From positions 62,001 to 126,000 of the forward strand of contig NZ_ATUZ01000018.1 of assembly GCF_000420465.1 (NCBI RefSeq): 64,000 nucleotides of DNA, read 5' to 3'. The stretch comes from Desulfovibrio desulfuricans DSM 642. GTDB taxonomy: Bacteria; Desulfobacterota; Desulfovibrionia; Desulfovibrionales; Desulfovibrionaceae. Under the pieces are notes generated by a model. The model ran no database searches and had not been told where the DNA came from. It saw only the letters and a program-made list of their open reading frames with translations. The translations under genes and the position numbers were made by a program. Shown in pieces: positions 30,039 to 45,679 of this stretch. The stretch's first letter is position 1; the number at the start of each line of letters is the position of its first letter.

Positions 30039-30380
30039 ATGATTCCCGGTGAATTTCATATCGCTGAGGGCGAAATAACCCTCAACGCACTCTCGGAAGG
30101 GCAGGAAGTTGTGCTGGAAGTTTCCAATACCGGCGACAGGCCCATTCAGGTGGGTTCGCACTACCATTTTTTTGAAGTAAACCCGGCTCTTACCTTTGCC
30201 CGCGAATCCGCGCGCGGCATGCGGCTCGACATACCCGCCGGAACCGCCGTGCGTTTTGAGCCGGGGCAGAAACGCGAGGTGCGCCTTGTGCCCTACGCCG
30301 GGGCACGGCGCGTGTTTGGCTTTCGCGCCCAGATCATGGGGGCGCTTGATGCCGAAGCCCCCAGGGAGGAAAAAGCATGA
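30039..30380 (+). CDS. ureB: Urease beta subunit UreB
   Basis: A 113-residue structural subunit starting [13 protein letters not shown], with the conserved [11 protein letters not shown] and [15 protein letters not shown] blocks. AAGGGGGA precedes the ATG. Its stop overlaps the ureC start (ATGA), ensuring equal synthesis of the two subunits. Confidence 0.96.
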
Positions 30381-32098
30381 TCCGCATTCCCAGAAGCCAG
30401 TATGCCGAACTCTACGGCCCCACCACGGGCGACCGCATCCGCCTTGCGGACACGGAACTGTGGATCGAAATTGAGCGCGACCACACAGTCTATGGCGATG
30501 AAGTCTGTTTTGGCGGCGGCAAGGTCATTCGCGATGGCATGGGCCAGAGCCAGATCAGCAATGCTGACGGCGCTATGGACACCGTCATCACAAATGCCGT
30601 CATCATGGATGCGGCGCTGGGCATCATCAAGGCTGATCTTGGCATACGCGACGGGCGCATTGCCGCCATCGGCAAGGCTGGAAACCCCGATGTGCAGCCC
30701 GATGTGGACGTGATCATCGGCCCCGGCACGGAAATCATTGCAGGGGAAGGCTGCCTGCTCACCGCTGGCGGCATGGACTCGCACATCCATTTTATCTGCC
30801 CGCAACAGGTGGAAGAAGCCCTGGCCAGCGGCATCACCACCATGCTTGGCGGCGGCACCGGCCCCGCCACGGGCACCAACGCTACCACCTGCACCCCCGG
30901 CCCCTGGCATCTGGAACGCATGCTGGCCGCCACAGACGCACTGCCCATGAACTTTGGATTTCTGGGCAAGGGCAATGCCGCCATGCCCGATGCCCTGCGC
31001 GAGCAGCTCGAGGCGGGCGCCTGCGGCCTGAAACTGCACGAAGACTGGGGCACCACCCCCGCTGCCATCGACACCTGCCTTACCGTGGCTGACGAATACG
31101 ATGTACAGGTCGCCATCCATACCGACACGCTCAATGAGGCGGGCTTTGTGGAAGACACGCTGGCCGCGTTCCGTGGCCGCACCATCCACACCTACCACAC
31201 GGAAGGCGCAGGCGGCGGCCACGCACCCGACATTCTGCGCGCCTGCTCCCTGCCCAACGTGCTGCCCTCGTCCACCAATCCCACCCGACCCTATACCGTG
31301 AACACCGTGGACGAGCATCTGGACATGCTCATGGTTTGCCACCACCTCAACCCCTCCCTGCCAGAGGACGCGGCCTTTGCCGATTCGCGCATCCGGCGCG
31401 AAACCATTGCCGCGGAGGATATCTTGCAGGACATGGGCGTGATCTCCATGATTTCCTCAGACTCGCAGGCCATGGGCCGCGTGGGCGAGGTCATCACCCG
31501 CGCGTGGCAGACCGCCCACAAGATGAAGGTGCAGCGCGGCCCCCTGCCCGAAGACCGAGGGCACGGCAACGACAACTTTCGCGTGCGCCGGTATCTGGCC
31601 AAGTACACCTGCAATCCTGCCGTTACCCACGGCCTTTCCCACGCCATTGGCGCAGTGGCCCCCGGCCTTCTGGCCGACCTCGTGCTGTGGAAGCCCGCCT
31701 TCTTTGGGGTCAAACCTTCGCTGGTCATCAAGGGCGGGCAGATAGCCGCCGCGCCCATGGGCGATGCCAACGCCTCCATCCCCACGCCGCAACCCATGCA
31801 CTACCGGCCCATGTTTGGCGCGCTGGGGCAGGCTGCGGCTGCCGCCAGCCTGAGCTTTGTTTCGCGTGCCTTCATGGAAAACGGCGGCGAGGGACGGCTG
31901 CGGGAGCTGGGTCTGCTGCGCGGGCTTTCCTCCTGCCGGGGCACGCGCACACTGTGCAAGAGCGACCTTTTGCTCAACAGCGCCACCCCGGCCATTGCCG
32001 TGAATCCGCAAACCTATGAAGTCCGCGCTGACGGCGAAATACTCACCTGCGCTCCGGCAGAAGTGCTGCCGCTGGCGCAACGGTATTTTTTGTTCTAG
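30377..32098 (+). CDS. ureC: Urease alpha (catalytic) subunit UreC
   Basis: A 573-residue nickel amidohydrolase that splits urea to ammonia and carbamate. The metal-binding HIH is in [10 protein letters not shown] (~136-138), the carbamylated lysine in GLKLHEDWG (~219), and the flap cysteine/histidine in [20 protein letters not shown] (~322). All catalytic elements appear intact and the length is standard, so the enzyme should be active. It forms the (alpha-beta-gamma) unit with UreA and UreB. Confidence 0.97.
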
Positions 32099-39003: not shown

Positions 39004-39152
39004 GACAACATTCCGGGCGCTGGCTTCACTGCGGTGTAAGGCGGTGAAGATGATTGAAGTCTTGTGATTTTTCTTTGCGATGCACGTTAATACACTACAA
39101 TTTCGGCGTAATTTTTTCTCTATCAAAGATTTACGTTTAAAAAGATGGCTTT

Positions 39153-39353
39153 TGTCCTTTAACAAGGAAAAGGCCCGTTTCAGGACAGCAACCAACAGTA
39201 ACGGCAGTCGCGGTTCACACAAGAGAAATTTTGCTCTCCGGCAAGGAAGAACGTTTTTTTGCGCAAGGAGTGTACAAAAAAGGTACTCGACTGAAGCTAA
39301 AAAACGTTCTGACGCAGCCAGAGAACAAAAGAGCCTTGTGCGAACCGCGACTA
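39153..39353 (-). repeat. Paired structured repeat element, copy A
   Basis: A ~200-bp element between the antiporter gene and dinB. A small hairpin (TGTCCT at 39153-39158 with AGGACA at 39182-39187) is followed by a ~145-nt imperfect dyad at 39207-39351 whose two arms align along their whole length around a 7-nt loop (39276-39282). Its core has CCGGCAAGGAA (39238-39248), GGAGTGTAC (39267-39275) and GGTACTCGAC (39282-39291), identical to copy B at 44290-44500. The outer end of the dyad enters the stop codon of the antiporter gene (39351-39353). In the direction of that gene it would be the 3' untranslated region. Confidence 0.7.
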
Positions 39354-41039
39354 GTCGAGCTTCTCGCGCACACGTTCCAGTTCCGTCTGCACATACGCTT
39401 CCGGCGCACCCGCCGAACGCAGCAAGTACTCCGCCATGGCCAGCGCAACTTCACGCTCGCCGCTGAACACAGCATCCACGCCTTTCTCGCGCAGTGAGCG
39501 GGCCTCGCTCACAAAAGCTGTGTGCGCCAGAATGCGCGCATGCGGATTGACCGCGCGCGCTATGGGCGTCACTTCGCCAGCAGGGATGCTGGGGGTTGTC
39601 AGCAGCAGCGCCTCGGCCTTTTCCAGGCCAGCTTCGCGCAGCACTTCGGCCTGCATGGCATCGCCGTGCACCACGGGTACCCCTTCGCTGCGCAAAAGCC
39701 GCACAGTGTCGATATTCATTTCCACAACCACGGGCAGCATGCGGCTGTCCTGCAAAATGCGGCAGCAACTGCGGCCAACGGGGCCGTAGCCCACCACAAC
39801 CACCCGCCCTCGGGTGCCTTCGTCCGGCACGATCAGGCAGGCCGAAGGTTCGGCAACGTTGCCGCGCTTGCGCTTCTCCCACCACAGCCCCAGATCCTTG
39901 GCCTTGCGGTACAGCATGGGGTTGAACGTGATGGAAATGATGGCCGCAGGAATGAGCGCATTGTTCACCCTCTGGTCAAAAACCCCAAGGCTGATGCCAA
40001 GACCCGCAAGAATAAAAGTAAATTCACCCACCTGCGACAGGGAGGCGGCCACGGGCAGCCCCAGCTTGAGAGGCTTGCGGAACAAACTTGTCATCAGCAG
40101 CGCCCCAAGGGGCTTCACAATCATGATGACAAAAAGAGTCGCCAGCATGAGGGGCCAGTCCTGCGCCAGCGAGGCGGGATCAAAGAGCATGCCCACAGAC
40201 ACAAAAAACAGCACGGCAAAGGCATCGCGCAGGGGCAGGGCTTCGGCGGCGGCACGGGCGCTGAACTCGGACTGCCCTACAACCATGCCAGCCAAAAAAG
40301 CGCCAAGCGCCATGGACGCTCCAAAAAACTCCGCCGCCGCCACGGCAATGCCAAGGGCCAGAGCCAGCACCGCAAGGGTAAACAGATCGCGGGTTCCCGT
40401 GCGGGCAACATAGCCCAGAAACAACGGGATAAGCTTTTGCCCGGCCACAAGCGTAAACACGGAGAGCGCCGCCAGTTTGAGCAGGGTCATGCCCAGGGCG
40501 CTCCAGAATTCGCCGCCCGGAGAAAGAACCGAAGGCAGGAGCACAAGCAGCAGGATGGTAAAGATATCTTCCACCACCAGCCAGCCCAGGGCCACATGCC
40601 CGGTGGTATTGTGCAGGTCATGGTTATCGGCAAGTACACGGGTAAGCACCACGGTGCTGGCAACAGAAATAGCCATGCCGTAGACCGCGCCGGACAGCAG
40701 ATCAAAGCCGAAAAAATGCAACAGCCCCATGCTTGCCAGCGTTGCCAGCGATATCTGCGCCGCTGCGCCGCCAGTGGCAATGGCCCCCACGGCCAGCAGA
40801 TCCTTGAGGTGAAAATGCAGGCCCACGCCAAACATCAGCAGGATAACGCCGATCTCCGCGCACTGGGCCGCCGTGGACGCATCGGCCACAAAGCCGGGGG
40901 AGTGAGGGCCTACGATGATGCCTGCGAGCAGATAGCCCACAAGCGGGGAAAGGCGCAGTTTCTGCGTGATAAAACCAAGAACCAGAGCGGCGGAAAGCCC
41001 CCCGGCAAGCGTAAGAATAAGATCTACGTCATGGGGCAT
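39351..41039 (-). CDS. CPA2-family monovalent cation/proton antiporter with TrkA-N domain
   Basis: A 562-residue inner-membrane transporter of the KefB/YbaL type. About 12 hydrophobic segments fill residues 1-390, with the family region LVGYLLAGIIVGPHSPGF near the start and ISVASTVVLTRVL. A cytoplasmic TrkA-N (NAD-binding) domain at ~410-535 has the GYGPVGRSCC nucleotide loop. It probably exchanges K+ or Na+ for protons, regulated by a nucleotide. AAAGGAG precedes the ATG. Its stop codon lies in the repeat element copy A. Confidence 0.88.
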   Translation of the reverse strand: MPHDVDLILTLAGGLSAALVLGFITQKLRLSPLVGYLLAGIIVGPHSPGFVADASTAAQCAEIGVILLMFGVGLHFHLKDLLAVGAIATGGAAAQISLATLASMGLLHFFGFDLLSGAVYGMAISVASTVVLTRVLADNHDLHNTTGHVALGWLVVEDIFTILLLVLLPSVLSPGGEFWSALGMTLLKLAALSVFTLVAGQKLIPLFLGYVARTGTRDLFTLAVLALALGIAVAAAEFFGASMALGAFLAGMVVGQSEFSARAAAEALPLRDAFAVLFFVSVGMLFDPASLAQDWPLMLATLFVIMIVKPLGALLMTSLFRKPLKLGLPVAASLSQVGEFTFILAGLGISLGVFDQRVNNALIPAAIISITFNPMLYRKAKDLGLWWEKRKRGNVAEPSACLIVPDEGTRGRVVVVGYGPVGRSCCRILQDSRMLPVVVEMNIDTVRLLRSEGVPVVHGDAMQAEVLREAGLEKAEALLLTTPSIPAGEVTPIARAVNPHARILAHTAFVSEARSLREKGVDAVFSGEREVALAMAEYLLRSAGAPEAYVQTELERVREKLD

Positions 41040-41096
41040 GGATTGTGCTCCTTTGAGGCCATGAAAAGGCAGGCCGCAAACAGCTGAATGCCCGCT

Positions 41097-41175
41097 CTAG
41101 AGCTGTTAACGAATGGAATGGGTTAACTGCTCCGCAAGGATTTTCCTGAAAAATCCTTGCCACGAAATGCTCTAG
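41097..41175 (-). repeat. Two-hairpin element enclosing the yjbQ stop codon
   Basis: CTAGAGC (41097-41103) pairs with GCTCTAG (41169-41175) and encloses two hairpins. One is GAGCTGTTAAC (41100-41110) with GTTAACTGCTC (41122-41132), with one mismatch. The other is GCAAGGATTTT (41134-41144) with AAAATCCTTGC (41150-41160), a perfect 11-bp stem. The first hairpin and the outer stem compete for a few bases. The yjbQ stop codon (41172-41174) is inside the outer stem. There is no U-tract beyond the structure, so it is not a standard terminator. Confidence 0.55.
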
Positions 41176-41585
41176 TCGTCGGACTTCAGCCATTGCAGCC
41201 ACAGGTTGCGTCGGCGGGGGCCGTCGCCCTCGCACAGGTAAACAGATTGCCAGGTGCCAAGGCACAGTTCGCCCTTCTCCACAATCAGCAGGAGGGATGG
41301 CCCATGCAGGGTGGTTTTTATGTGGGCATCACTGTTGCCCTCAGCGTGGCGGTAATCGCCATGCTCCGGAGCAAGGCGGCTAAAAAAGGCCAGCATGTCG
41401 CGCCGCACGTCAGGGTCTGCGCCTTCGTTGACCGTGAGGCCGCAAGTGGTGTGCGGGCAAAACAGAGCCAGAGCGCCGCTCTGCCAGCGGCCATCTGCGG
41501 CCTTGCGACGCACCAGCGAGCGTAGCTCCGCCGTGATGTCGACCATCTCGCAACGGCTGCGGGTGCTTATTTCGAGAGTTTCCAC
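41172..41585 (-). CDS. yjbQ: YjbQ family protein (UPF0047)
   Basis: A 137-residue protein with the conserved HTTCGLTVNEGADPDVRRDM segment, the HAEGNSDAH histidine cluster and the LGTWQSVYLCE-DGPR end. Structures in this family form trimers with a bound metal; weak thiamine-phosphate synthase activity is reported for E. coli YjbQ, but the true role is uncertain. It begins 7 nt after the ATP-grasp gene ends, in the hom-ATP-grasp-yjbQ unit. The ATG at 41585 lies within good overlap spacing. Confidence 0.88.
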   Translation of the reverse strand: METLEISTRSRCEMVDITAELRSLVRRKAADGRWQSGALALFCPHTTCGLTVNEGADPDVRRDMLAFFSRLAPEHGDYRHAEGNSDAHIKTTLHGPSLLLIVEKGELCLGTWQSVYLCEGDGPRRRNLWLQWLKSDD

Positions 41586-41592
41586 GGCTGCC

Positions 41593-42780
41593 TCAACTTG
41601 TGAATTCCAGCAGGTCGGAGCGGGCTATGCGGCCCAGCTCTTCACGCTGGTTTTCCGGCGTTTCGGTAAAGAGAAAACCAAACAGCCCGTAGCGCGTGAA
41701 ATCGCTTTTGCGCACATGCAGCACACGGGCAAAGCCCCGGCTCAATGCCTCGTAATCAAAGTTGCGCACGGGCGGGCAGTTTTCCGGCTTGTTCAGCACA
41801 ATGAGGGTGTAGAGCTTGCCTTCGCGCCCTGCCAGAGCCTTGTCCCAATCAGGCCGCCGCCCTTCCAGAAAGCAGCCGTAGGTGTGGAAGCCCCAGGAAA
41901 ACAGGGTGACGTCCGTGCAGCACCAGCCCGCAAAACGCAGGGCATTGAATTCTATGGGCCGTATACGTCCCTGGGCGTCACGCCGCAGCTCCACATGGGT
42001 GGGAAAATTCCGCAGACCCAGCAAGGAGTTAACCTTGTTGAACCATGCCTCGAACTCCGCAAGGTGTGAGCGTACCACAGAAGCGCCCGTGTAGTACAGG
42101 CGGTCGCTCACGTCCGAAGCGGAAGCAAATTCGTGCCGCAGGATGTTGCAGATCACGGCCTGCCCCTGTGCGTCAAAGTACACATCCACGGCGTATTCAT
42201 CGCCGTCAATGTATTCCTCGATGAGCCAGTCTTCGCTGTCCACCACGCTGTCTGGATACTGCTCGCGCCAGTGCGTTGCTTCCTGCTCAATGACGGCAAG
42301 GGCGGCCTGCCAGTCTTCGCGGGTGCGCACAATGCGCACGCCCAGGCTGAAAAAGCCCACAGAAGGCTTGACCACGCAGGGCAGGCGCAGTTCTTCAAAA
42401 GGCAGGTGGCGCAGGGCATCAAGGCTGAGTCTGCGATAGAAATAATCATCGTAGAGGGGGCGCAGCAACTCGCGGGTCCTGGCCTTGTTCTTGAGCTTTT
42501 CAATGCCGCTGACAAGCTCGGCATTGTCCACATGGTCGCAAACCCAGGCCAGGGAATTTTCCGAGCAGGTATAGATGCGCGGGGGCGCGCAGTCCGGGCA
42601 GGGCTTCCGGCCCTGGGCCGCAAATTCCGCTTCCGGTATGAGGTTCAGGGGCGCTGCGCCAGAAAGCGCGCGGGCGCGGGACAAGTCCCGCGCCACAGCA
42701 TTGTCGAGCACCGGTTCCCGCCGGGCTGCCGCGTAGTCGAGCAGCTCTGGCGAGACGTATGGTTCATCAAAAATTATCAT
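41593..42780 (-). CDS. ATP-grasp domain protein of unknown substrate
   Basis: A 395-residue cytoplasmic protein. The central ATP-grasp region (~110-310) shows LPCVVKPSVGFFSLGV (lysine and glycine loop), WLIEEYIDGDEYAVDVYFD (nucleotide and metal contacts) and IRPIEFNALRFAGW (metal-binding Glu/Asn). Such enzymes join a carboxylate to an amine or thiol through an acyl phosphate. A CPDC motif near residue 62 (KPCPDCAPPRIYTCSENS) is unusual. The start overlaps the hom stop by 4 nt (ATGA), so it is translationally coupled to homoserine dehydrogenase; the substrate may be an amino acid, but this is inference. Confidence 0.8.
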   Translation of the reverse strand: MIIFDEPYVSPELLDYAAARREPVLDNAVARDLSRARALSGAAPLNLIPEAEFAAQGRKPCPDCAPPRIYTCSENSLAWVCDHVDNAELVSGIEKLKNKARTRELLRPLYDDYFYRRLSLDALRHLPFEELRLPCVVKPSVGFFSLGVRIVRTREDWQAALAVIEQEATHWREQYPDSVVDSEDWLIEEYIDGDEYAVDVYFDAQGQAVICNILRHEFASASDVSDRLYYTGASVVRSHLAEFEAWFNKVNSLLGLRNFPTHVELRRDAQGRIRPIEFNALRFAGWCCTDVTLFSWGFHTYGCFLEGRRPDWDKALAGREGKLYTLIVLNKPENCPPVRNFDYEALSRGFARVLHVRKSDFTRYGLFGFLFTETPENQREELGRIARSDLLEFTS

Positions 42781-44111
42781 GCTCCTCCCAACACGCGGAA
42801 GTACACCGCGGGTTCCTTGAGCAGGCCGGCGTCCATGGTGCGCTGGAGGGCGTCGCTCATGGCGCGGGCCGTGGTTTCGTGGGTCATGAAGACCAGCGGC
42901 ACGCCGTTGCCTTCATCGCTCTTCTGGATGACCTGAGCCATGCTGATGCCCTCGGCGGCCATGCAGCCCGAAAGATCACGCAGCACGCCGGGGGTGTCCT
43001 GCACCATGACGCGCACATAGTAGCACGAGCGCCATTCTTCCGGCGGCACGATGGAGGCCTTGGGCAATTCCTTGCCCACAAAGCCGGTGTTGTTGGGGCG
43101 TTCATCGCGGGCAACAGCCAGCAGATCGCCCAGCACGGCCCCGGCTGTGGGCAGATCGCCCGCGCCGCGCCCGTGGAAAAACAGCGGGCCGGAAGCGTTG
43201 GCGTCCACCCGCACGGCGTTGTACACGCCGCCCACGCGGGCAAGCAAAAATTTGTGGTACACTAGGGCGGGGAACACCCCGGCCTCAAGCCGGATGTTGC
43301 CTTCACCCTCAGCACCCTCGGCGCCGGGCACCTCGCGCACCTGACCAATGAGCTTGATGCGGTAGCCAAATTCGCGCGCAAGGCGGATATCCATGCCAGA
43401 AAGCCCGCGAATGCCGCGCACCGAAAGGGCCGTGTAGGGATAGTGCACCCCGTAGGCCAGACGGATAAGCAGAATAAGCTTGTGGGCGGCATCATGACCG
43501 TCAATGTCCAGCGTGGGATCGGCCTCGGCATAGCCCAGCTGCTGGGCCTGCTTGAGCGCAACGTCAAAATCCATGCCATTGCTGGTCATTTCAGACAAAA
43601 TATAGTTGCTGGTGCCGTTGAGAATGCCCATGAGCGATTCAATCCGGTTGCCCGTGAGGCTTTCCTTCAGCGTTTCCACAATGGGGATGGCCCCGGCCAC
43701 GCTGGCTTCGTAGCGCAGGATGCGCTTTTTGCGGTCAGCCTTCTGGAACAGGGCCAGACCTTCCTCGGCCAGCAGGGCCTTGTTGGCGGTGACGATGTGC
43801 TTGCCCTGATCAAGGGCGCGGTCGATGATGGTGCGGGCATTGTCGATGCCGCCGATCAGTTCCACCAGCACGTCAATTTCAGGATCATCGGTAAGCGCGC
43901 GGTAATCGGTGGTTAGCTCGGTTCCGGCTGGCAACGGGGCGCTGCGGGCCTTGGTGGCGTTGCGCACAAGCACCTTTTTGAGCACGATGTCGCGCCCGCA
44001 ACGGCGGCGAATAAGATCGGCGTTTTCGTCAAGCAGACGCACAAGGCCGCCGCCCACGGTGCCGAATCCGGCAAGGCCCACTACCAGGGGTTTATCGCTG
44101 TTCTTTGTCAT
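42777..44111 (-). CDS. hom: Homoserine dehydrogenase
   Basis: A 444-residue oxidoreductase that reduces aspartate semialdehyde to homoserine, the branch-point to threonine and methionine. The nucleotide loop GFGTVGGG is at residues 15-22, the catalytic domain has GILNGTSNYILSEM and YAEADPTLDIDGHDAAHK, and a C-terminal ACT domain (~355-440, VRVMVQDTPGVLRDLSGCM) allows feedback by threonine. TTCGGAGG precedes the ATG. thrC lies elsewhere in the window (58.9 kb). Confidence 0.96.
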   Translation of the reverse strand: MTKNSDKPLVVGLAGFGTVGGGLVRLLDENADLIRRRCGRDIVLKKVLVRNATKARSAPLPAGTELTTDYRALTDDPEIDVLVELIGGIDNARTIIDRALDQGKHIVTANKALLAEEGLALFQKADRKKRILRYEASVAGAIPIVETLKESLTGNRIESLMGILNGTSNYILSEMTSNGMDFDVALKQAQQLGYAEADPTLDIDGHDAAHKLILLIRLAYGVHYPYTALSVRGIRGLSGMDIRLAREFGYRIKLIGQVREVPGAEGAEGEGNIRLEAGVFPALVYHKFLLARVGGVYNAVRVDANASGPLFFHGRGAGDLPTAGAVLGDLLAVARDERPNNTGFVGKELPKASIVPPEEWRSCYYVRVMVQDTPGVLRDLSGCMAAEGISMAQVIQKSDEGNGVPLVFMTHETTARAMSDALQRTMDAGLLKEPAVYFRVLGGA

Positions 44112-44289
44112 GTCGCCTCCGAATCTGCTGCCTAACCCCGGTCTGTCCGCCGCGGGCCTGCGCGGTTGTTGGCCATGTGCGGCCTTATGGTTGCTGCGGC
44201 GGGGCCGGAAAACCTCCCGACCCCGCCGATTTCAGTAATTCGGACCTCGCTTCTTACCGTCCGAAAAAACGGCTTTTGAAAGCGAAATT
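44112..44289 (-). promoter_or_regulatory. hom upstream region with hairpins
   Basis: About 180 bases before hom. CGGCGGGG (44197-44204) pairs with CCCCGCCG (44221-44228), and TTCGGAC (44239-44245) pairs with GTCCGAA (44259-44265). On the minus strand both would be in the 5' untranslated region or promoter region. I saw no leader peptide with a run of Thr or Met codons, and no clear promoter. Confidence 0.35.
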
Positions 44290-44500
44290 TTGTTCCCTGG
44301 CAAGAAAACGACCCGTTTCAGGCTGTCCAGGGGACAAATGATGCTTCCAAAACCTGTTTTGCCATCCTGCGGATTTTTGCCTTCCGGCAAGGAATGCGGG
44401 CTTTTTATGCAGGGAGTGTACTCTGATGGTACTCGACCGGAATAAAAAGACCGCCTGACGCCGCCGGAAGCAAAAAGGCGCGGAGTGCGAAACAGGTTTA
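44290..44500 (-). repeat. Paired structured repeat element, copy B
   Basis: The second copy of the element at 39153-39353. A hairpin of TTGTTCCCTGG (44290-44300) with CCAGGGGACAA (44327-44337) precedes a ~150-nt dyad at 44350-44499, whose ends are AAACCTGTTT and AAACAGGTTT. The core CCGGCAAGGAA (44384-44394), GGAGTGTAC (44413-44421) and GGTACTCGAC (44428-44437) is identical to copy A, while the stems differ in sequence and stay paired. The end enters the stop codon of the aminotransferase (44498-44500). Confidence 0.7.
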
Positions 44501-45679
44501 GTCGGAGACGCCCGACAACAACCGCCGCATACTGCTAATAGCCTGCCGCGTGCGTTGATCGTTTTCAATCAGGGCAAAACGCACGTATTCGTCGCCGTAG
44601 GAGCCGAAGCCCAGGCCAGGCGAAACAGCCACGTGGGCCTCCTGCAACAGCAGCTTGGAGAATTCCACGGAGCCCATCTTGCGGAAGGGTTCGGGAATGT
44701 GCGCCCACACAAACATGGTCGCCTTGGGCGAAGGTGTTTCCCAGCCGATGCGGTTCAGGCCTTCGATGAGGCGGTCGCGCCGTTCCTGATATACATCGCG
44801 GATCTGGTGCACGCAGTCTTCGGGGCCGTTGAGGGCCACGGTGGAGGCAATCTGGATGGGCTGGAACATGCCGTAATCCAGATAGCTCTTGATGCGCGCC
44901 AGGGCATGAATAAGATCCTTGTTGCCCACGGCAAACCCCACGCGCCAGCCTGGCATGGAATAGCTCTTGGACAGGGAGTAGAATTCCACGCCCACATCCT
45001 TGGCGCCCTTGGCCTGCAAAAAGCTGGGGGCCTTGTAGCCGTCAAATACCAGATCGGCGTAAGCCAGATCATGCACAACCCAGATGTGGTTTTCCTTGGC
45101 GAAGTCCACAATCTTCTGGAAGAATTCCAGATCCGTCACTTCGGTGGTGGGGTTGTGCGGATAGCAGATGAAAAGCACCTTGGGCTTGGGCCAGGCCTGA
45201 CGCATGGCGGCCTCAAGGTCTTCAAAAAAGTTGCGGCCAGGGCCGATGGGCACGCTGCGCACGTCCGCGCCTGCAATGATGGGCGCGTACTTGTGGATGG
45301 GGTAGGTCGGGTCGGGTGCGAGCACCACATCGCCGGGCTCAAGAATAGCCAGCGAAAGGTGGGCCAGGCCTTCCTTGGAACCCAGGGTCACGATGGCTTC
45401 GCTGTCAGGGTCGAGCTGCACGCCGTAGTGGCGGGCATAGCGATCACAGATGGCTTTGCGCAGGTTCGGAATACCGCGCGAAAGCGAGTAGCGGTGGTTC
45501 ACCGGCTTCTGTGCTGCCTCAACAAGCTTTTCGACGATGGGTGCGGGCGTTGCGATGTCCGGATTGCCCATGCTGAAGTCCACGATGTCGATATTCTGCC
45601 GACGCAGCCGCATTTTGAGGTCTCCCACCACCGCAAAAACATAGGGGGGGAGGCGGCGAATCCGCGAAAACTCTTCCAT
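44498..45679 (-). CDS. PLP-dependent aminotransferase (AlaC/alanine type)
   Basis: A 393-residue fold-type I aminotransferase. The PLP lysine is K238 in [13 protein letters not shown], with [13 protein letters not shown] (PLP-contacting Asn/Pro) and the [13 protein letters not shown] start region. The sequence resembles AlaC-type alanine-pyruvate transaminases and the aminotransferases often found next to hom in delta-proteobacteria. A role in aspartate or methionine-related metabolism is possible because hom follows. TAGGAG precedes the ATG. Its stop lies in repeat copy B. Confidence 0.85.

Follow-up and report, generated by a model that had tools for sequence, protein, structure and literature searches.

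What kind of element keeps the same scattered letters in two places of the Desulfovibrio desulfuricans DSM 642 genome, differs between those letters, and still pairs arm to arm? A preliminary description of the window (the whole 64,000-nucleotide stretch of DNA analysed here) had reported two such copies that share CCGGCAAGGAA, GGAGTGTAC, GGTACTCGAC and a TGACGC segment, with arms that differ yet remain complementary (AGAACGTTTTTTT/AAAAAACGTTCT in one copy, a GCGG-CTTTTTAT/ATAAAAAG-CCGC type in the other), and all of this is real in both copies. Each unit is a hairpin with the architecture P1-P2-loop1-P3-loop2-apex, and its refined bounds (Table 1) include the neighboring stop codon. A covariance model built from 13 copies (R1) had no match in the window besides these two, of 111.6 bits at 39226-39333 (+) for copy 1 and 108.4 bits at 44372-44479 (+) for copy 2, whereas the opposite strand scored 46 and 40 bits, respectively.

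Table 1. Positions of the hairpin elements, their parts and the adjoining stop codons in the window
Feature	Position	Strand	Basis
Copy 1, entire hairpin P1-P2-P3-apex	39206-39353	+	R1 match, folds; conserved tandem G.A loops on + strand
Copy 1 P1 5' arm	39206-39223	+	Sequence, fold
Copy 1 P1 3' arm, overlapping the neighbor gene's stop codon	39335-39352	+	Sequence, fold
Copy 1 P2 5' arm TTTTGCTCTCCGGC, partner 39317-39330	39229-39242	+	R1 match
Copy 1 internal loop 1, 5' side AAGGAA; tandem G.A with TGACGCA at 39310-39316	39243-39248	+	
Copy 1 variable stem P3 (39249-39262 with 39296-39309), GCA/GAA 3x3 loop, apex GGAGTGTAC-N-GGTACTCGAC	39249-39309	+	R1 match
Stop codon TAG of KefB-like gene (39351-41039, -), directly at copy 1 end	39351-39353	-	ORF list
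Copy 2, entire hairpin	44350-44500	+	R1 match, folds
Copy 2 P1 5' arm, partner 44478-44499	44350-44372	+	Sequence, fold
Copy 2 P2 5' arm TTTTTGCCTTCCGGC, partner 44463-44476	44374-44388	+	Sequence, R1 match
Copy 2 internal loop 1, 5' side AAGGAA; 3' side TGACGCC at 44456-44462	44389-44394	+	
Copy 2 apex: tandem G.A, U.U mismatch, GTAC stem	44410-44441	+	
Stop codon TAA of aminotransferase gene (44498-45679, -), directly at copy 2 end	44498-44500	-	ORF list
Remnant half of second, tandem element (CCCGTTTCAGG type) beside copy 1; bounds approximate	39136-39188	+	Comparison with form in ortholog L207
Deletion derivative of second, tandem element beside copy 2; bounds approximate	44286-44338	+	Comparison with full form in ortholog L180

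Either strand of both window copies folds far better than shuffled sequence, as DNA and as RNA, and no shuffle folded equally well (z of -6.9 to -9.7 for the + strand as RNA; -6.5 to -7.6 as DNA). Among the 13 copies, double changes were found in 23 of 37 pairs, compared with 11.1 in shuffles. An alignment of 55 diverse copies, made from the sequence without reference to the fold, had 91.7% of pair cells paired and double changes in 34/37 pairs; covariation was 0.533, against 0.178 (sd 0.008) when shuffled and at most 0.18 when slid. A tree-based null, simulated by ourselves on a FastTree tree and approximate in that simulated divergence was 0.28 versus 0.34 observed, gave 0.051 (sd 0.008, maximum 0.070 in 200) against an observed 0.497. 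The tandem G.A was kept in 49 of the 55 copies in loop 1 and in 51-52 at the apex, the G.A / A.G flanks of the 3x3 loop (type G-N-A/G-R-A) in 44 and 42, and the U.U mismatch in 45. Structure is kept although the letters of the arms change completely. The earlier proposal that selection maintains a structure in which compensatory changes surround fixed unpaired bases was borne out by these covariation tests, and the arms covary far beyond the nulls, as expected of neither a chance repeat nor a simple recent duplicate.

The count of two copies was too low. A covariance-model search of the genome and of other Desulfovibrionaceae, as the preliminary description had proposed, returned 36 R1 matches at E < 1e-4 in the DSM 642 assembly and matches in 47 of 149 genomes drawn from the family, with none in one genome of the same genus; across the phylum, 37 of 345 genomes had matches, some of them from other families. 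The exact apex pattern occurred in 78 stretches over 85,000 genomes, mostly Desulfovibrionaceae, and also in Lentisphaerae, Opitutales, Bacteroidaceae and Ruminococcaceae, where it likewise comes with the long hairpin. Both window copies belong to subfamily sf1 (apex GGGAGTGTAC..GGTACTCGACCG); a second subfamily, sf2, has the apex GCGCAGCGTAC..GTACGTGAGC. At 1080-1130 of L149, from a Lentisphaeria MAG, an apex variant (GGGAGTGGAC-N-GTCCTCGACC) adjoins standard apex copies, which indicates that the apex stem itself covaries. Carriage by phages or plasmids was rejected, as viral contigs gave one match to the apex pattern and one more to a variant pattern, and the phage, plasmid and E. coli collections gave none. 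These hairpins are a real, widespread structured repeat family of Desulfovibrio-type and some gut bacteria. The family is apparently undescribed so far: no description was found in the main text of open-access papers, and Rfam gave no credible match at any element under gathering or permissive thresholds, only spurious miRNA matches. Elsewhere in the window, at 30526-30818 (-), Rfam 5_ureB_sRNA matched with 87 bits antisense to a urease alpha-subunit-like ORF (30377-32098, +), probably through coding conservation rather than as a Helicobacter sRNA.

Neither this high-copy dispersed family, spread over several phyla, nor its placement at stop codons in one orientation had been foreseen by the preliminary description. 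The placement is independent of the gene caller. An ORF in sense orientation, 80 or more codons long, ended within 57 nt of P2 in 86 of 112 copies, compared with 23 on the other side, and in the same 112 copies the stop lay 19-21 nt from P2 in 36 and in 1 on the other side. A simple, codon-usage-based caller, applied to 142 distinct copies, placed the stop of the right-hand gene on the side of the element in 109 and the start in 18 (median distance, 19 nt); of 2,064 random positions, 19 fell within the 19-22 nt window. The stop lies at the P1 edge and is TAG in 58, TAA in 19 and TGA in 8 copies (called genes: 230, 182 and 154, respectively), with CTG (13) or CTA (5) as the mirrored triplet in 18 of 47 TAG cases. 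All of these context counts take in orthologous copies and are in part interdependent. Element-free orthologs of both window genes end at the same codon, and the protein is therefore unchanged by the element. On the left, gene direction is inconsistent and the flanking sequence is not shared from copy to copy. Only 6 copies had a '-+' gene arrangement, compared with 52 '--' and 47 '+-', meaning that divergent promoter regions are avoided. No recurrent neighboring protein was found; common neighbors were orthologous housekeeping loci such as rpmI-rplT and polA. In Nitratidesulfovibrio (L066, L085, L092, L100, L112, L151) the element separates rpmI from rplT in a ribosomal-protein operon, and its P1 arms differ between species at the same position.

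This position suggests a function at the stop codon. One account, which we regard as rather unlikely, is a cis-acting 3'-UTR RNA element of the sense transcript, which would stall or release ribosomes, block exonucleases or Rho, or set the expression of the next gene in the operon, and would have spread through its usefulness. It is consistent with the fixed distance and orientation to stop codons, with copies inside operons (e.g., rpmI/rplT in Nitratidesulfovibrio), with the avoidance of divergent promoter regions, and with E. coli, in which some REPs are no more than 15 nt away from a stop codon and REPs near the stop codon downregulate translation (PMC12306157). The conserved non-canonical motifs, however, make sense on the opposite strand: they define the + strand, which is antisense to the abutting gene and shows G.A where the sense strand has U.C. 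The antisense strand was also the better RNA fold in 118/124 copies, and orthologs often lack the element with the gene unchanged. A trans-acting or antisense small RNA made from the structured strand, binding protein via the G.A motifs, would agree with the fixed G.A, U.U and tandem U.G on that strand, and two P2 columns are often U.G there (52 wobbles versus 1 A.C). We nevertheless consider it very improbable, since wobbles outside those two columns favored no strand (46 G.U versus 32 A.C, p 0.14), the unconserved left flank shows no common promoter, and the left-hand genes follow no consistent direction. The wobble strand bias is weaker than expected of an RNA family, and for this reason it is possible that the acting molecule is single-stranded DNA.

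The reading we favor, with about half of our confidence, is a non-autonomous, REP/MITE-like family of mobile hairpins that is kept as a 3'-UTR element. Mobility is demonstrated in one Lentisphaerae genome, MAG SIG93, where the hairpin lies within a ~275-bp transposon-like unit with inverted-repeat ends (GTTATTGTCCC..., GGTTTTGTCTC...) and the units are near-identical, four copies having 8-bp target duplications. Mobility may likewise explain the Desulfovibrio copies. The Desulfovibrio MAG Mgla_MAG_47-bin_26 has near-identical units at eight unrelated sites, bin_3 contributes a ninth unit, and near-identical units at different sites also occur in other Desulfobacterota families. Tandem arrays with periods of ~150 bp were found behind polA in genome G087 (L163) and at L091. 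Arrays of sf2, with periods of ~355 and ~386 bp, were observed at L337 (G040:C1:887000-903000) and L338; sf2 copies also lie at contig ends (L049-L051), suggesting larger repeats.

Tandem placement also accounts for the smaller CCCGTTTCAGG hairpin, previously included in the element. It lies outside the unit and, by ortholog comparison, is what a deletion has left of a second element in tandem, one that belongs to a third subfamily (sf3) and is complete at the aminotransferase-gene ortholog of G040 (L180); at the other locus, the G146 ortholog (L207) has a CCCGTTTCAGG-type element beside a truncated first element. Half of an Mgla-type unit (AATCCTAAAAAATAAGATTTTTAGG plus GGAGCGAAGCGGAAGACGG hairpin), without the core, was seen 3' of the aminotransferase ortholog at L196 and L197, implying that deletion derivatives are common. 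One polymorphic site was occupied in G146, degenerate in G159 and a scar in the present genome (G000); this is probably a loss that left a deletion scar.

Near-identical copies also reveal stem segments that are specific to each copy. Copies of the Mgla unit diverge by 57% over the five bases that open the P2 arm but by 4.5-8% in the outer flanks and the interior, and the P2 arms are perfectly complementary in 8/9 copies; a six-base P3 segment of sf2 is likewise variable between near-identical copies yet complementary. Hypervariable but complementary segments were noted at L086, L120, L121, L125, L129, L135 and L143, and in sf2 at L044-L053, L337 and L338. Copying of the variable segment from the insertion site was rejected, as flank matches were in no excess over shuffles. 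We can offer only two explanations, strong constraint on the rest of the unit or copying by a mechanism that alters the two arms together. In another view the repeats are palindromes, selfish or neutral, and it is template switching at hairpins during replication, not selection on the fold, that maintains the match between their arms; the joint change of entire stem segments on both arms, even at 4-8% divergence elsewhere, speaks for this view. Template switching would erase the asymmetric loops too, yet these are fixed in 49-54/55 copies, which already weakens this view, and it leaves the orientation unexplained; we judge it very unlikely.

The mobile-hairpin reading has its own difficulties. 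Among Desulfovibrionaceae, no clean pair of insertion and empty site was found, and no target duplications are established: TA on both sides of some Desulfovibrio copies is suggestive, but was not accepted as a target duplication because the mirrored end is more often TG. The Y1 transposase (RAYT, PF01797) is absent from G000, G040, G087 and G102, all copy-rich, and the IS630 DDE_3 transposase (PF13358) from G000, G040, G087, G126 and G146; both tested families are thus missing here and from several further copy-rich genomes. RAYT was rejected as an extant mobilizer for the present genome on this ground, and IS630 on the absence of PF13358 and a mirrored TA end in only 5/47 TAG copies. Neutral mobility alone, moreover, predicts neither one orientation nor a fixed distance to the stop codon.

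Several known systems resemble the family in part. Integron attC sites lie behind a stop codon, fold on the strand antisense to the gene, and combine variable arms with conserved unpaired bases. The present hairpins share all of these traits, but the abutting genes are ordinary chromosomal genes rather than cassettes, and the stop-proximal profile contains no conserved 7-mer or 7-nt end boxes of the R-box kind. In REPINs, two REPs in inverted orientation are tied to a RAYT. Like them (PMC3116915), the family would be a non-autonomous hairpin repeat moving within genomes; unlike them, it has no REP doublet and, in the present genome, no Y1 transposase. Bacterial MITEs (ERIC, NEMIS, Nezha and others; 70-300 bp) are also non-coding, with inverted-repeat ends and positions near genes, and the SIG93 unit with its 8-bp duplications is MITE-like; MITEs have conserved termini and free interiors, whereas here interior loops are conserved and outer arms vary. 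REP/BIME palindromes, tagged GTAG or CGTC, are dispersed, extragenic and mostly downstream of genes in many phyla, and CGTC REPs have no known transposase (PMC3733652). The present family is similarly dispersed, extragenic and palindromic, 3' of genes, in several phyla and with no mobilizer found, but a REP is a 20-40 bp unit with a short stem and an unpaired tag, and ours is a single ~150-nt rod whose stems change freely around several fixed internal loops. No conserved tetranucleotide was found in the stop-proximal profile, and GCGTC is confined to an internal loop on the sense strand. By reading, no T-run of an intrinsic terminator follows the outer stem in the sense sequences. The family is best described as REP/MITE-like, yet those defining features of REPs, REPINs and IS630 MITEs that were looked for were not found in it. 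The initial impression of no known family, REP or terminator therefore stands for Rfam, REPs and terminators, while REP/MITE-like behavior, not that of a single regulatory RNA, has to be added to it.

Support for mobile hairpins comes from dispersed copies that are patchy among relatives and reach unrelated phyla, from near-identical units and tandem arrays, from the SIG93 units with 8-bp duplications, from covariation with fixed loops, and from stop-codon adjacency and orientation with the coding sequence unaltered in element-free orthologs. Under this reading, one strand would fold into a ~150-nt rod in which stems may take nearly any sequence and internal loops are fixed. The fixed loops (tandem G.A in loop 1 and the apex, the G-N-A/G-R-A 3x3 loop and U.U) may be recognition marks for a putative trans-acting enzyme or binding protein acting on the folded single strand. 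Copies would land, or be retained, directly behind the stop codons of resident genes in one orientation; the sense transcript would then carry the hairpin as a 3'-UTR structure, by analogy with E. coli REPs, with a possible influence on stability or on the final step of translation. A more tentative alternative, possible but doubtful, is a new class of hairpin, with copy-specific complementary stems set in fixed G.A loops, at stop codons and in one orientation, which would owe its upkeep to a putative dedicated protein that recognizes the folded strand and either inserts it where translation ends or acts on it at that place.

In the variable yet complementary stem segments, the co-evolution of palindromes can be tested on natural material. 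Should the stop-codon rule stem from insertion, it would point to a mobilizing enzyme whose target is unusual; should it stem from selection, a widespread 3'-UTR element missing from RNA databases would be shared by sulfate reducers and gut bacteria.
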